Below are positions 2,501 through 26,647 of a stretch of DNA of 34,800 nucleotides, one piece after another. The notes beneath the pieces were generated by a model that saw only the letters and a program-made list of their open reading frames with translations, was not told the DNA's origin and did no database searches. A program made the translations under genes and the position numbers. The DNA comes from Myxococcales bacterium (lineage in GTDB: Bacteria > Myxococcota_A > Bradymonadia > Bradymonadales > Bradymonadaceae), in contig SLJM01000076.1 of NCBI GenBank assembly GCA_007135085.1, positions 1 through 34,800 of the forward strand, given 5' to 3'. The first letter of the stretch is position 1. Every line of letters begins with the position of its first letter.

Positions 2501-5500
2501 TTAAGCGGGATCGTCGGGAAATAGGCGGCCCTTGAGCTCTTCTCTCTGCGTATGAATGAACTCAGTTATCTCGTGGCGATTGTCGGCGTCGATATATTTC
2601 CCTTCCAGCCTGGTGAAAATGAATTGGATTTTTGTCCAGATCTTGTTCTTTAGAGGCTCTTCACTGGTGGCAATTTTCCTGACTGGAAGCCCGCCGAAAC
2701 GTTGATAAATGTGGACTGAGGATGAGTCTCGATCGGGGAGTTGCTCAATGGATCGTCGAAGATAGTCCTCGGTGAGCAATTGCGTGATGGTGAGAATTTG
2801 GGCGGTGCTGAGATGGTGGAAGGAGTTGATCAGGGCCCCGCAGATGCGCAGTTGTGTGGCAGACGGTTCGGTATCGGTTCCACTCGTCGGTAGGTCCTCG
2901 AAAAAGCGTTCTATCTGTTCTTTATCCGGTCCCGAGAGGGGGCGCTCATCGGTGTAGAGAGAGGCCCATTTGGATAGATAAGGCTGGGCCTGGCTGGAGT
3001 CGGAATATTTGCCCAATAATTGTTCGGCGATATCCCGTCGCTGGGCGATAGTGCCGTGCTTACGAGCGAATTGAAGGCGCTCTTCCAGGGGTAATTCCAT
3101 GCCCCGGCTCCACCAGACGTCGGCCACGGGGCCGCGAGCCAATCTTCGAAGAAGTTCTGCGCGTTGCTCGGTGGAGAGAAACTCCCAGGCGCGATGGGCC
3201 CGCGAGAGGTCGGTGCTGAGTTGGTAGAGATCGCATTGATTGGGATCTGCACACCATTGGCGAAGGGTGTGGGGATCGTTTTGAAGGGCCCATTGGTAAC
3301 GCGCCTTTTGCCAGTCTTTCTGCAGGTCGTGAGGAGGGCTCCAGGCAGCTGATGGCTCAGTTTCGTCGTCGATCGCAAAGGTGTCGATGATCTCCCAGAA
3401 CCGGGCGATACTGGCGGCCCCTGGATAGGTATCGCTCCGGTTGGCGTGGCGGTGAATCCAGATACGATTCATCAGGGGGGCCAGCGATTTCCAGCGTTGC
3501 TCCTGTGGGAGATGCTCAATGCTCAACAGATAGAGGATCTCCTCATCAGGGAAGGGTTGGAGGCCAATAAATAGGTTCTCGCGAAGTTCTTCGAGGGAGT
3601 GTCTAGAACTGAGGAAGGTGAGAAATTCCGACCAGAAGTCATCATCTAAGTCGGGTAATTCCAGCTCGTTGAGGCCCTCCCCACGACAAGATAAGAGGTG
3701 TCGAAGCCTGTGGAAGCGCCAGCGCTCTCGGCACACGATAGGAGAGGAAATCTCCCAGGCTGAATCCAGCGATTGGCGCAAAAGCTGTGGTTCTTCTCCG
3801 GCGTGAATCTCCAGACGTCCCAGGGATATCAGCGCCCGGTGACGAAGCTTGGCCAGTTGCTGGAGCGACGAAAATTGGAGTGAATAACGGCCGCGTTCGT
3901 CTGGCAGCCTGGCATGGCAGATTCGGTGCTGAAGTAACCTGGGAAGTGCTTCGATATTCATGTCGCAGAGGTCACGAAGGATCTGTCTGGCGTCGAGCCA
4001 TTCGGCGACGGTGGTGATCAAGATGCTCAACTTCGGCCAACCTCGGTCGTCATTGCGATAGCCCATAGATTGTTTGTGAATAAAGAATTCCACCAGAGCC
4101 TCATATCCCTCGTCGAAAGTTTCGACGATCCCGGAGAGGGGGCGAGGAAGGTGGTATTTTAGGGGCGTTCGGAGAGCTTGTTGGAGCAGCGTCGCTAATT
4201 CGTGGTGTGTTTCTGCGTCCAACGCTTCACCAGGGGATTGGAAATAGTCGTCCAGGGCCCTTTTGGAATCTGCTTCAAAGCGCTCATACTTTCCTTCCCG
4301 ACCATCCTGTTCGGCGATCTCTATCCACCACTGAAGCAATTCGGTGGTGGATAATTGGTCGCGAATCTCCAGATCAGCAAAGGCCGACATCGAAGAGCCC
4401 TGTAAGAGAGCCCGTCGGGCCGCCAGGTCGCCCCGGCGGGCAAGTGAGATGATCGGTTCGCCTCGCCCCAGGAGGAGCCCAGCAATATGGCCCGGGAGCT
4501 CAAGGGAATCATTGTCTGCGACCAGGGCGGTTAATTCGGCGATCTCCCGATAGGGAAGTTGAAAGGGCGCCAGTTGGAACAGCAATAATCGGGTCGGTGT
4601 CGATCGATCAGTGGCGTCGCCGATCAGATAATCGGCGGCCGTCGATGGAGGGATAAGCGAGAGCAGCGCACTCAGAGGATCCTCGTCACCGTCCAGAAGT
4701 GGCAGGTGGTGCTGCAGGGATTCGCTGACATTCGCCAAAAAATTAAAATCAACTCCCTTAAGGGCCGGATCGCCGGAGAAGAGCTGATCCTCGATGATAA
4801 GCCCGATGGCAGCGGCCCATAATTGGTGCACCCACTGGCCGTCGATGGCGCTTTTCGGGGTGGGGTGGGCCGCCAATCCGTCCAGGATGGTGAGCATGGG
4901 TTGGATGGCCCGGTTATTCTCTTCCAGGAGGTATTGGCACCAGGAGGTGATCTGGTCGTCCGCGGCGATCTGGGCGGCTCCCTTGATGATGGTATCGGCG
5001 TGGCTATGACCGTCGGCATAGACGTCAAGTCGGGCCAATAGGGCGGTATCGCAGTTAAGGGCCAATTCCAATAAACCGAGCTCGATGAGCTGCTTATCGA
5101 GTTTGTGGGTTTCCTTTTCGCCCTTTGATGAGCTGCGCTGAAGCAGGCCCTCTGAGACAAGCTCTACCTTTAGAGAGGTCGGCAATAGGCCCATGGCCTG
5201 TCGTCGCAGAGCCGGTCCGGTCGCATCGTCGGAGAGGAGGAGTTCCTTTAAGATTTGTCGGCACTTAATAAGAGCGTCGTCGCCGGCCGGCGGTGGGGAG
5301 TCTTGAAGGCCCAGGCAATGTTCAATATCGACGATGGGATCAAATAGGCATGGCGACCACTCGCTCTGTTGGGGTCGGGCCGACTCCAGACAGCGCATAA
5401 AAAACTCGGCGTCCGCCCCGTCGGCGATCCACTGCCGAGCGACAGCAGAGTCTGTCTTTTCCGTCAGCTCCCGGCGCGTCCACTGGGCCCGAAGTTCCAC

Positions 5501-6550
5501 GAAACGTCGGGGGCTATCGATGATGGGATGATCGCGAAAATAGTCCGTGGCGTAGCGGAGATGATGGCGCGACAGGGCGCCCACCGTGGCCAGCGGGAGG
5601 GAGTGAAAGGCCTGGTCGATACGTCGGGCCTCGTCGGCGTTGATATAATATTGGTTCTTCAGCCGTTTCACCCACGTAGAAAATTGAGCTTCTTCTAGGT
5701 TGCAGAAGGTCAGCGGGATCTCGACGACGTCGTGTTCCGGGCCTAGTTGTTTCTCGTGGCAGCCAAATAGACGCTGGTCCTCGCAGAAGGATTGGACGCA
5801 AAATTCGGCCAACTCGGAGAGCAATCTATTGGCGCGCACACCGTCGGCGGAGCGCCAGGAGACGGATATTAGAATCTGCAATGGCAAAGTAGAGCGCTCG
5901 ATCGCCTCCTGGAGGTCGAGCAAATAGGACTCTAATCGCGGCCAGTCCAAATATTCATCGTCTAAATCCTCAGGGAGAAGGTGGGAGCGATTTTGGTCAT
6001 CGAGATAGCGGCGTAGGTCAGTGAGAGCAGCTATCTTGGGCGCACTACCGGCAGGTCGATAGGCGTCGCTCACCCATTGGAGGGTGAGGGGAAAATAGTC
6101 CAGGGCTTCGTCGCCGACGGTCCGGGAATTTGCCTCCTGTTCCACAAGGCGCAAAAAGCGCTGAAATAATTGGTTTGCCGTCGGGTCGATGAGCTTACAG
6201 AGGGCTTCGATATAGTCGTTATAGTCCTTGGGATCATCACGGGGCTCCACCCAGGAGAGGACATCACGGCTATAGCCGTTGAGGAAATCCGACAGCGGGG
6301 GGCGAATGGATTTGTAATTTTTACCCGTCTTCTGGGCCAGAATTTTGGCCAGGTGCGTTGTATTCTCGGCGGCTGCCTCGCGGAGGATATAATCCTTCCA
6401 CTCCGGGAGCTTACCCTCCGCCAATCTGGCGGGAAAATCAGCTAAATTTCGTTCATTGGTCATCGCACTCTCGTCGTCAGAATCAATGGGTCGATAGGCG
6501 AAATAGGTATGGCGAAATATCTGTGAAATCGCATCTGCGGGCTGTGTCAT
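2501..6550 (-). CDS. Very large helical protein of unknown function (1349 aa)
   Basis: I do not recognise this protein. It is predicted soluble: no signal peptide, no membrane segment, no obvious Walker A, protease, nuclease or glycosyltransferase motif. The first 100 or so residues (after MTNERN) look like a helix-turn-helix-sized helical unit. A segment near residues 225-300 has strand-like LPLQILISVSW and VEIPLTFCNLEE, faintly like the last parts of a degenerate STAND/NACHT ATPase core; this is a weak impression. The remaining ~1000 residues are amphipathic helices rich in Leu, Trp and charged residues, like HEAT/ARM/TPR solenoids. It is a single-gene unit between a lipoprotein gene and nirS. 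Its base composition looks visibly less GC-rich than the flanking genes, which would fit acquisition. The ATG at 6550 has no clear ribosome site; an internal ATG at 6463 is an alternative start. Confidence 0.8.
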   Translation of the reverse strand: MTQPADAISQIFRHTYFAYRPIDSDDESAMTNERNLADFPARLAEGKLPEWKDYILREAAAENTTHLAKILAQKTGKNYKSIRPPLSDFLNGYSRDVLSWVEPRDDPKDYNDYIEALCKLIDPTANQLFQRFLRLVEQEANSRTVGDEALDYFPLTLQWVSDAYRPAGSAPKIAALTDLRRYLDDQNRSHLLPEDLDDEYLDWPRLESYLLDLQEAIERSTLPLQILISVSWRSADGVRANRLLSELAEFCVQSFCEDQRLFGCHEKQLGPEHDVVEIPLTFCNLEEAQFSTWVKRLKNQYYINADEARRIDQAFHSLPLATVGALSRHHLRYATDYFRDHPIIDSPRRFVELRAQWTRRELTEKTDSAVARQWIADGADAEFFMRCLESARPQQSEWSPCLFDPIVDIEHCLGLQDSPPPAGDDALIKCRQILKELLLSDDATGPALRRQAMGLLPTSLKVELVSEGLLQRSSSKGEKETHKLDKQLIELGLLELALNCDTALLARLDVYADGHSHADTIIKGAAQIAADDQITSWCQYLLEENNRAIQPMLTILDGLAAHPTPKSAIDGQWVHQLWAAAIGLIIEDQLFSGDPALKGVDFNFLANVSESLQHHLPLLDGDEDPLSALLSLIPPSTAADYLIGDATDRSTPTRLLLFQLAPFQLPYREIAELTALVADNDSLELPGHIAGLLLGRGEPIISLARRGDLAARRALLQGSSMSAFADLEIRDQLSTTELLQWWIEIAEQDGREGKYERFEADSKRALDDYFQSPGEALDAETHHELATLLQQALRTPLKYHLPRPLSGIVETFDEGYEALVEFFIHKQSMGYRNDDRGWPKLSILITTVAEWLDARQILRDLCDMNIEALPRLLQHRICHARLPDERGRYSLQFSSLQQLAKLRHRALISLGRLEIHAGEEPQLLRQSLDSAWEISSPIVCRERWRFHRLRHLLSCRGEGLNELELPDLDDDFWSEFLTFLSSRHSLEELRENLFIGLQPFPDEEILYLLSIEHLPQEQRWKSLAPLMNRIWIHRHANRSDTYPGAASIARFWEIIDTFAIDDETEPSAAWSPPHDLQKDWQKARYQWALQNDPHTLRQWCADPNQCDLYQLSTDLSRAHRAWEFLSTEQRAELLRRLARGPVADVWWSRGMELPLEERLQFARKHGTIAQRRDIAEQLLGKYSDSSQAQPYLSKWASLYTDERPLSGPDKEQIERFFEDLPTSGTDTEPSATQLRICGALINSFHHLSTAQILTITQLLTEDYLRRSIEQLPDRDSSSVHIYQRFGGLPVRKIATSEEPLKNKIWTKIQFIFTRLEGKYIDADNRHEITEFIHTQREELKGRLFPDDPA

Positions 6551-22986: not shown

Positions 22987-23169
22987 CTATTGTGGTGTCT
23001 CACGCGGGTTCGGGGAGTTTCCATCATTAAAGTTGCCGGTTCTTCCCCGGACCAGTTGAGAGAGTTTTCCCAGTCGAACGAGCTCCGGTCGTTGATAGAC
23101 GAGGGCTGTGTTCGCCGGGGAGTCCGTATGGCAGAGCCCTTCGACAGACTCGGCGGTAACTTTTTTCAT
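22987..23169 (-). CDS. Lasso-type RiPP precursor peptide
   Basis: A 60-residue peptide. Its leader ends YQRPELVRLGKLSQLVR, followed by a candidate core GRTGNFNDGNSPNPRETPQ (19 residues). Counting the core Gly as +1, Tyr is -17, Pro -14 and Leu -12, the positions known to be read by the B1 recognition element in lasso leaders. The core has Asp at position 8, so a Gly1-Asp8 eight-membered macrolactam ring (GRTGNFND) with an 11-residue tail is predicted. The usual Thr at -2 is Val. The ATG at 23169 (GGAG 9 bases upstream) is preferred; an ATG at 23184 is possible. It lies 113 bases downstream of a cyclase-like gene on the same strand. Confidence 0.7.
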   Translation of the reverse strand: MKKVTAESVEGLCHTDSPANTALVYQRPELVRLGKLSQLVRGRTGNFNDGNSPNPRETPQ

Positions 23170-23187
23170 AGATTGCGACTCCATTTT

Positions 23188-23202
23188 AGACGACTGTCGT
23201 CT
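23188..23202 (-). promoter_or_regulatory. Palindrome just upstream of the precursor gene
   Basis: AGACGAC-T-GTCGTCT is a perfect 7-bp dyad with a one-base centre, 18 bases upstream of the preferred precursor ATG at 23169. TAGACGAC also occurs in the inverted repeat at 26397-26414. It could be an operator for the precursor gene or a small hairpin in the leader. Confidence 0.4.
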
Positions 23203-23297
23203 TATCTGGACCTATCTCAGGTGGACGGTTGGTTCCTTGCTAACAATATTTTACGTTTACCGTATCCCTGTTGCAACTTGGATCAATTGATAACCGG

Positions 23298-25073
23298 TCA
23301 TATTGGCAAGGGTTCTCTTATTACCGACTGCCCGGCTGCGTCCCACTGCCTGAGCCAGAGTTCTGTCGCCATCACATGCCAGAGTTCGAAGGCGTACTGT
23401 CGGCGAAAGATATCGGGCTCATCGAAATTGGCGGCCAGCCAATCCTGAATTTCTTGTCGGTCGATACAAAGATATTCGCTCAGCCTGTGGGCCCCGATCA
23501 ACTCCTGCGGTGACGGTCTCAGATAATATCGAAACCCCTCCCAGACGACCTCGTCGAAACAGCCGATGCGGCGATTGTCAAAAAACGACGCCGGGACGCG
23601 AGAGTCCAATAACCTGCGCAACGGCGCCTTTATTTCTCCCCGGGCTCGCAGGACCGAGGGGGGAAGGCTCAGTCCCACCCGGAGGACATCGAGATGGAGG
23701 AAGGGGAGCTCGACAAAAAGACCGGTGCTGCGGCGATATCGCTCCAGAAGCCGCATCGTATACTCCCAGTACCAGGACTGGAAGAATTCCGCCCTCTGCT
23801 TCAACCACCGGTGGCGATCGTAGAGGACACGCCACTGCAGATCTCGCCGGCGCTTCTGCGCTGTCATCCAGGGAGGGCCCGGTCTCGATCGACATGGATA
23901 GGGAAATCGCGATAGGCCCCACTTCTTTGCCCTCCCTTTGAGCCGGCTCTTCAATCGCCAACGCCAGGACCCCACCGCCGGCAGCGGCCGCCCCTTCCAG
24001 ATCTGGTCCTGGGCCCATTCGAAAGGGGTCACATAGAAGAGTTGATCCGAGCCGAGCCCGGTGACCAGCACCGCAGGCTTTCTCTGCCGCTCTAAAAGGG
24101 TCCGTGCATGGGCGTAGAAGTTTCGGAAATAGGCCGCCTCGGCCATGAAGGCGGGGCCGAAATCAACGGTGGGGTGGTGCACCTGTGGTGTCCCCCACTG
24201 CTGAGGACCGCGGATATCAAAAAATTCTCCCTCGATCTGTTGGGCCGCCAGGAGGCCCTCGATGGTGCTGCGTTCATCAACGTGGCTCGTCCCCTTGGCC
24301 ACCATCGAAAGCGAGCGGGGTTGCTTTCCCAATTCCCGAAATAACAGCAAAAGCAATGTGGAATCGTAGCCTCCACTCAGGCTTATCAGCTCTCCTGCTC
24401 GCGAAGCCGACCCCTCAATAGCCGTCGCCAGAGCGTCGCCAATATGCTGAGCGGCCGTCTCCACCTCTTCGGTAAGGGGCAACGGCGAGGGGGTCCAATA
24501 GGAGCGAGACCACAGACGTCCCGTGCGTTCGGCGAGCAATACTTCGCCGGCTCGAATTCTCTGCACGCCCTGAAAAAAGTCGTCCCTCTCCCGGCCGTGT
24601 TGGCCCCTGAGAAAGAGCTCCAGTCTGTGTCGTCGTATGCGACGAGCCGAGCCCATGACCATCGCCGGTCGGGTCCCGACCACGACCCCGGCTCCTTTTC
24701 CTTGTTCACCATCGACGACGCGCCGCCACATCAGCGGAAGTCGTCCGATAGGATCGCGATAGGCCCTCAGTCCCCGCATAGTTTGGACCACAAGACCCCA
24801 ACCGGGCATATCCCGAAGAGCTTCCTCCAGGGCCAGGCCCCGATGAGGGTCTTCAATGGCGGCGATCACCTCCGCGCTGATTTGACGAACTTCTTCTCGC
24901 TGATCCTCTATCCCGGGATGATTCAACCCGATCAGGCCATATAGACTCTCTGCATTCTGCCAACGGGCGAGGAAGAAGAGACTCCCCTCACGGCATAGCC
25001 ACGAGAACTGCTCTCCCGATGGAGACCACCGGAGCGCTAAGTCGCCCACTGTCTGGAAATCAAAGTTCTCCAT
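23298..25073 (-). CDS. Lasso cyclase-like asparagine synthetase homologue
   Basis: The product of 591 residues has an N-terminal class-II amidotransferase-like region without the catalytic N-terminal Cys, as in lasso cyclases (C proteins), and a C-terminal ATP-pyrophosphatase domain with LISLSGGYDSTLLLL (SGGxDS at 233-238). In place of the usual GxGGDE/QxF loop it has TGLGSDQLF (338-346). The N-terminal region also has FFQGVQRIRAGEVLLAE, typical of asparagine synthetase-related cyclases. It would adenylate a side-chain carboxylate and form an amide, here plausibly the ring of the neighbouring precursor. No B1/B2 genes adjoin. A GTG at 25103 would add ten residues; the ATG at 25073 was chosen. 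Asparagine synthetase or another amide ligase remains possible, but the adjacent precursor argues for a cyclase. Confidence 0.75.
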   Translation of the reverse strand: MENFDFQTVGDLALRWSPSGEQFSWLCREGSLFFLARWQNAESLYGLIGLNHPGIEDQREEVRQISAEVIAAIEDPHRGLALEEALRDMPGWGLVVQTMRGLRAYRDPIGRLPLMWRRVVDGEQGKGAGVVVGTRPAMVMGSARRIRRHRLELFLRGQHGRERDDFFQGVQRIRAGEVLLAERTGRLWSRSYWTPSPLPLTEEVETAAQHIGDALATAIEGSASRAGELISLSGGYDSTLLLLLFRELGKQPRSLSMVAKGTSHVDERSTIEGLLAAQQIEGEFFDIRGPQQWGTPQVHHPTVDFGPAFMAEAAYFRNFYAHARTLLERQRKPAVLVTGLGSDQLFYVTPFEWAQDQIWKGRPLPAVGSWRWRLKSRLKGRAKKWGLSRFPYPCRSRPGPPWMTAQKRRRDLQWRVLYDRHRWLKQRAEFFQSWYWEYTMRLLERYRRSTGLFVELPFLHLDVLRVGLSLPPSVLRARGEIKAPLRRLLDSRVPASFFDNRRIGCFDEVVWEGFRYYLRPSPQELIGAHRLSEYLCIDRQEIQDWLAANFDEPDIFRRQYAFELWHVMATELWLRQWDAAGQSVIREPLPI

Positions 25074-25139
25074 AAATCTTCGACAGCGCTCCTGATTTAC
25101 CACAGCTGATGCCGGGTTGGCGTCGAACCGCCTGAAGAG

Positions 25140-26202: not shown

Positions 26203-26647
26203 GGGATTCTCCCTGTAGATGACGAGAAGCCGAAGAGGATGGACAGGGGTTCGGTGTCCCCGGCCTGCTCAGGGTTATCGACGATGGTGGGCCGACCTGG
26301 CAAGCGCAGGAGGTACAGCCAGGGATCACCGCAATCCACCATCAACACTTAGCGGCACCCCTCCAATTGCAGTCTGCGCCGCCGTTCAGGCGCCTTAAAT
26401 AGACGACGGTGGTAGAGCCAAAGACATCGATTCCCAAGAGATACCGTTGTTGGTCAGTTTATCCACCATCGTCTATTTGAGGGGCCAAACTACGATTTTG
26501 GAGGAGGTGCTAAGTGTCGGTGTGGTTTGCGGCCGGAGGCGTTGCAAAATCCCCTGTGCGTTGAGATCCTATCTGAATAAGCCTGCCTATCAGTTCGTCT
26601 GCCAAGAGACGTCGCAGGTGATGACCTGGAAATCTGGAGAACATGCA
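26203..26647. other. Divergent intergenic region with a long inverted repeat
   Basis: Between the start of the 75-residue gene (minus strand) and the exported-protein gene (plus strand) I see no gene I can support. The open frames here are overlaps or lack start signals. The main structure is the inverted repeat at 26397-26478. Confidence 0.5.
26397..26478. repeat. Inverted repeat pair, 18 bp, in a divergent promoter region
   Basis: AAATAGACGACGGTGGTA (26397-26414) and TCCACCATCGTCTATTT (26462-26478) are imperfect inverted repeats, identical at AAATAGACGA and GGTGG, and about 47 bases apart. Possible readings are paired operator sites for a looping regulator, a small mobile-element remnant with terminal repeats, or a long RNA hairpin. 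The repeat lies between two divergent genes and about 200 bases upstream of the lasso-like operon's first gene. Confidence 0.55.

Follow-up and report, generated by a model that had tools for sequence, protein, structure and literature searches.

A lasso peptide precursor-cyclase pair in a Bradymonadaceae genome, possibly matured in trans by an unlinked B1-kinase-B2 module

Lasso peptide clusters have been noted in almost all Bradymonabacteria genomes (PMC7460792). The bsf cluster of Bradymonas sediminis FA350, with the related pcy, mmv, llb, lss and lvt clusters in Bradymonadales (Duan et al. 2023, PMC10368454), is the described system closest to the locus reported here. In the bsf pathway, BsfB1 aids two enzymes: BsfK, which phosphorylates core Ser3 and also accepts Thr, and BsfB2, whose cleavage site follows Arg(-1). 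BsfA is the only precursor for which phosphorylation at core position 3 has been demonstrated (PMC10368454). The published Bradymonadales clusters are characterized by Ile(-2) in the leader and phosphorylation in the ring, and bsf additionally has a ribosomal-protein neighbour (PMC10368454).

The genome studied here has the same kinds of genes (A, C, D, B1, K and B2), the same leader type and a Gly1-Asp8 core, a residue other than Thr at -2, a hydroxyl residue at core position 3, and a maturation module next to ribosomal-protein genes. The layout is different. The bsf genes form a single contiguous cluster; in the present genome, precursor and cyclase genes occur at two sites, both away from D-B1-K-B2. 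The bsf system also has Ile(-2) and a nucleotidyltransferase gene, bsfN, whereas the precursor described below has Val(-2) and bsfN was not found in the module on contigs C160 and C33.

Phosphorylated lasso peptides of the paeninodin type likewise depend on split B1 and B2 proteins and an HPr-kinase-like K, encoded by clustered genes. The paeninodin-type kinases act on a C-terminal Ser. The present cores have no Ser at their C-terminus, and the target of BsfK is residue 3. Prochlorosins offer a second parallel, with one ProcM acting on many dispersed precursors, a single maturation apparatus for substrates encoded elsewhere in the genome. However, prochlorosins are made by lanthipeptide chemistry, and here each precursor has its own cyclase, leaving only leader processing and export that would be shared. 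The citrulassin pathway also needs an enzyme encoded far from its lasso cluster, a peptidylarginine deiminase (reviewed in PMC9266682). That enzyme performs tailoring, whereas in the present genome the class-defining steps of leader recognition and cleavage, together with the exporter, are remote. A search of the main texts of open-access papers found no report of B1 and B2 genes that are remote from their precursor-cyclase pairs and may be shared among them. The chemistry is known; the divided layout appears to be undescribed.

The precursor and cyclase genes of the window

The window, meaning the whole stretch of 34,800 nucleotides that was analysed, is contig C145 (SLJM01000076.1) of a MAG of 509 contigs and 5.19 Mb, 93% complete with 1.3% contamination. 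The original prediction described a cyclase-like asparagine synthetase homologue with an SGGYDS motif beside a peptide with a Gly1...Asp8 core, and both ORFs are present, on the minus strand. The cyclase gene (C protein, 23298..25103) comes first, and 128 nt separate its end from the precursor ORF (22987..23169). From the ATG at 23169 the precursor has 60 aa, and from an ATG at 23184 it would have 65 aa; the former is the likelier start, with a GGAG about 10 nt upstream. The leader reads MKKVTAESVEGLCHTDSPANTALV-YQRPELVRLGKLSQLVR and is followed at the leader/core boundary by the core GRTGNFNDGNSPNPRETPQ (22990..23046, minus strand).

Several comparisons identify this short ORF as a lasso precursor. 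A leave-one-out profile built from 19 relatives, with the window left out, gave E=4.5e-10 for the window precursor and 0.09 for the runner-up among 896 segments. The motif Y..P.L...G.{7}G.{6}[DE] in a short ORF has one occurrence in the window, and 150 dinucleotide shuffles yielded none. The precursor profile A3 also matches the ORF, with only two such matches in the whole genome. In an alignment of 11 precursors, which are 24-41% identical to that of the window, Tyr(-17), Pro(-14), Gly1 and Asp8 are invariant and the Gly and Leu positions of the leader nearly so. Precursors found later deviate, genus g2 having Glu8 and G013 its first acid at position 9. The window leader, Y(-17)QRPEL...V(-2)R(-1), has all of Tyr(-17), Pro(-14) and Leu(-12), and with Gly1 and Asp8 the precursor shows what marks the lasso class, a YxxPxL leader and a core with Gly or a similar residue at position 1 and Asp/Glu at one of positions 7-9. 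It had been described as carrying the exact lasso leader motif. Y..P.L is indeed there, but the match is not exact, as Thr(-2) is replaced by Val and the NCBIfam model lasso_leader_L3 gives 15.2 bits, under its cut-off of 19. Thr(-2) itself no longer defines the lasso class, since published Bradymonadales precursors with Ile(-2) are still of lasso type.

By analogy with BsfA, the conserved leader segment Y(-17)QRPELVRLGKLSQLV(-2)R(-1) (23047..23097, minus strand) is the predicted B1 binding site and B2 cleavage context. Gly1 and Asp8 of the core would be the ring residues, and Thr3 is a candidate phosphosite, in keeping with the Ser/Thr at core position 3 that is typical of the bsf group. Bulky residues obviously able to lock the thread are absent from the core, which counts against the pathway proposed below. 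The predicted monoisotopic [M+H]+ of the lasso is 2039.93, and 2119.89 for its phosphorylated form.

The cyclase has 601 aa and is assigned to the asparagine-synthetase family by PF00733 (56.4 bits; cut-off, 21), by a family alignment and by an AlphaFold model (pLDDT 79.8). TsnB9, carbapenam synthetase, beta-lactam synthetase and AsnB are structural matches of the model, and the predicted fold is thus the one that a lasso cyclase should have. The SGGYDS ATP pyrophosphate loop (residues 243-248; 24360..24377, minus strand) contains S243, G245, D247 and S248, invariant in 12 cyclases, and every residue invariant across those cyclases is kept in the window enzyme, K492 included. The GLGSDQLF loop (residues 349-356; 24036..24059, minus strand) had been taken as the mark of a divergent cyclase. 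It is not odd within the family: G349, G351 and D353 are invariant in the 12 cyclases, and the remaining positions vary among these relatives. Further Asn_synthase matches in the genome, on contigs C399, C84, C52, C332 and C14, were set aside as candidate lasso cyclases because only two precursors were found genome-wide.

The gap between cyclase and precursor contains a weak promoter-like sequence, TTGCAA-17-TAAAAT (23248..23276, minus strand), which agrees with the consensus at 9 of 12 positions and is a possible promoter of the precursor's own; the region has 4 such sites with 1.2 expected. Directly before the precursor start is a 15-base palindrome, AGACGACAGTCGTCT (23188..23202), possibly an operator. 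It is the sole site in the genome at one mismatch or fewer, so no second copy that would mark a shared operator was found.

Within the window, no RNA family and no tRNA were found, and neither were B1, B2 or transporter genes. Unrelated genes lie on either side of the pair, over 23.0 kb and 9.7 kb. Synteny with sister genomes demonstrated no empty insertion site for the pair: of the genus's four other genomes, only one has the flanking AMP-nucleosidase-like gene, there at a contig end, and the flanking pirin gene is conserved, but its neighbours differ in all sisters. Among other features of the window, two 24-nt arms (26389-26412 and 26463-26486) that are 88% complementary form an inverted repeat with a 50-nt spacer. 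A further half-site lies at 26277-26290, and the whole looks like a small mobile or regulatory repeat. A cytochrome cd1-type protein is encoded at 48-2216 on the minus strand (Cytochrom_D1, 318.7 bits, plus two cytochrome c domains) and has a GGGGH repeat tract near its N-terminus; a 1349-aa ORF at 2501-6550, also on the minus strand, has no Pfam match.

The maturation module and a second pair in the same genome

The absence of B1, B2 and a transporter noted in the original prediction holds for the window and not for the genome, where all three are encoded. A search for a PqqD-like B1 and a transglutaminase-like B2 returned one of each over cut-off, PqqD on C160 and Transglut_core3 on C33, the latter also passing NCBIfam lasso_biosyn_B2 (62.9 bits against a cut-off of 33). 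An overlap of 117 identical bases inside the kinase gene joins C160, at its end, to the beginning of C33. The joined order is ABC transporter, B1, HPr-kinase-like K and B2, in one operon, followed directly by rpsL, rpsG and fusA. This places bsf-homologous B1, kinase and B2 genes beside ribosomal-protein genes (PqqD-HPrK-B2-rpsL), as in the bsf type. Both B proteins align well to the tested BsfB1 and BsfB2, including the B2 stretches VPGAxC and EGHAWLE. Identity to the proteins of G011, which is of the B. sediminis type, is 56% for B1, 34% for K and 38% for B2. No precursor or cyclase was found beside the module on C160 and C33. The genome thus encodes the B1 and B2 typical of the lasso class, but they are not clustered with A and C. 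Upstream of the transporter, at 3-554 of C160, there is a Cys-rich repeat ORF with CPEGT..GDCPDEDGV.CW.E units, in the spot where relatives keep a cyclase-precursor pair.

A second lasso-type cyclase and precursor, with the core GASYKGVDSIGELDPHENYPR, are located on C233 and are unlinked from the module too, so that the genome holds two pairs and one module in total. The C233 precursor has the Ile(-2) of the bsf type and Ser3 in its core; its lasso has a predicted monoisotopic [M+H]+ of 2286.08, to which phosphorylation would add 79.966. Both precursors have the leader type of precursors that adjoin such modules in relatives. On C233 (813-2669, 5839-5967 and 6112-6225), a 43-aa cyclase remnant stands directly before the second precursor. 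It is a broken duplicate that shares 84% identity with the intact cyclase, which is located about 3 kb further upstream.

Together these observations suggest that the window pair is the substrate and cyclase half of a lasso pathway whose other half is the unlinked, str-operon-linked module acting in trans, a reading to which we assign a probability of roughly 0.7. Maturation in trans was among the options raised originally, and it gains support from the presence of ABC transporter, B1, kinase and B2 genes without their own precursor or cyclase in the same genome and from relatives in which the halves are separated on large contigs. It had also been proposed that B1 and B2 on an adjacent contig would make this an ordinary cluster. 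The B genes are on other contigs, as that proposal had it, but adjacency is contradicted by the unrelated flanks of the pair and by the position of the module beside rpsL.

A fragmented MAG could lack a second B set or contain binning errors, and the module contigs are short, at 3.2 and 4.3 kb. The pair might then truly adjoin the module, or the module might come from another organism. We consider such an assembly or binning artefact very unlikely: the pair is embedded in a single contig between stretches of 23.0 kb and 9.7 kb that hold other genes, better assemblies such as G017 and G019 show this separation too, and composition (tetranucleotide profile and GC) agrees for window, module and C233, with a window-module correlation of 0.95.

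Arrangement and phylogeny across Bradymonadaceae

Among 13 genera of Bradymonadaceae, 11 have the module next to rpsL of the str operon, lying divergent from rpsL in G015; of the remaining two genera, g2 has no rpsL in the stretch read and for g7 only B2 was found. The position of the pair is far less constant. It lies immediately upstream of the module in G006, G011, G014, G017, G019 and G020, and also in G007 and G008, where the cyclases are divergent. The precursor of G011 has the same sequence as the BsfA published for Bradymonas sediminis FA350. G013 (locus on C70) keeps its cyclase at the module but has its sole precursor candidate on a different contig. G005 and G016 (genus g2) show the converse, with the precursor by the module and a cyclase encoded on a separate contig. 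Precursor and cyclase are both away from the module in G000, G009, G012 and G015. The arrangement in G004, whose module contig ends inside the transporter, was left out. In G007 (C77, 6611-8263, minus strand) the cyclase ORF continues in frame, without an intervening stop, into a C-terminal precursor beginning YEPPALEYLGELGEVVRGAASDVYD. The precursor could also start separately, from an internal ATG that has AGGTGG upstream, and the sequence fits either a natural cyclase-substrate fusion or an internal start.

The three Lujinxingia genomes (G017, G019 and G020) each have one linked and one unlinked pair, with a single B1 and a single B2 over cut-off. The nearest contig ends in G017 and G019 are about 89 kb away from the satellite pair and 44-66 kb away from the module, which places the two at a distance of over 100 kb.

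A maximum-likelihood tree built from 24 cyclases groups the window cyclase with the module-linked cyclases of the three Lujinxingia genomes and an unlinked cyclase of G015 (97/93). Satellite cyclases of the C233 type form a separate clade (95/94). Module-linked cyclases as a whole are not one clade (AU p=0.009), and long branches leave the deep order uncertain. Given its place in a module-linked clade, the window pair probably descends from a module-linked lineage and later moved away. The simplest reading of the C233 type is an old duplicate lineage.

These relationships bear on the idea that the pair is a variant with different processing, in which a dedicated, unrecognised recognition element and protease would replace the str-linked module. 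This is highly improbable. It would account for a Val(-2) that is neither Thr nor Ile and for scores under the cut-offs of lasso_leader_L3 and the NCBIfam lasso cyclase models; however, the C233 cyclase scores low in the same way, the leader and core are of the type that adjoins B1 and B2 in Lujinxingia, where the cyclase also has its clade mates, and the genome contains a B1/B2 set without a precursor of its own. A different mode of processing is not needed, though Val(-2) could affect cleavage.

Val(-2) is the main doubt, because BsfB1/B2 barely cut the Ile(-2)Val mutant of BsfA (PMC10368454). It is a real deviation and the point where the window pathway could fail. Val(-2) is also found naturally in precursors of G009 (C92) and G007, and its tolerance may therefore differ between modules. 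If the module cannot process Val(-2), the window pair might be a relict that was split from the module and yields no product, leaving the C233 pair, with its Ile(-2), as the module's only user. The poor cleavage of the BsfA mutant and the lack of local B genes agree with such a relict, as does the phylogenetic distribution: the four other genomes of the genus have no pair of the window type, and their cyclases are all of the C233 type. We nevertheless regard a relict as unlikely. Both ORFs are open, the invariant cyclase residues, the leader, Gly1 and Asp8 are all retained, and at an identity of 26-34% to the nearest relatives, a pair that was drifting should already lack some of these residues. 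The natural occurrence of Val(-2) in other relatives also argues against it. A decaying cluster, one of the options raised originally, fits poorly with these intact ORFs and with a precursor type conserved across the family, a conservation that had itself been put forward as worth looking for.

A proposed division of labour and its consequences

The preferred reading, in which the module acts on the window pair in trans, can be set out as a pathway whose catalytic steps we infer from the studied bsf system. If the pair is expressed, the YxxPxL leader would be bound by the module's B1. Core residue 3, Thr3 in the window peptide, would probably be phosphorylated by K, and B2 would cleave after Arg(-1), here preceded by Val(-2). 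The window cyclase would then adenylate Asp8 and join it to Gly1, giving an 8-residue ring, and export would fall to the ABC transporter. The C233 pair would depend on this module as well, such that one module is presumably used by two pairs.

Several consequences can be drawn. Genome-mining tools expect A, B and C genes in one neighbourhood, and unlinked pairs, such as the window pair and the second pairs of Lujinxingia, can be missed or scored as incomplete. A single module serving several pairs would require a B1/B2/K set that accepts different cores behind one leader code. It would also be a natural test of leader specificity, with Ile and Val at -2, and a ready-made common front end for engineering.

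We propose with moderate confidence that in Bradymonadaceae an old str-side module performs recognition, ring-residue phosphorylation, cleavage and export for at least two duplicated and relocated precursor-cyclase pairs, which would give several lasso peptides per cell. The conserved place of the module by rpsL suggests that the lasso pathway of this predatory group is old and has been inherited stably, which would be unusual for an accessory product.
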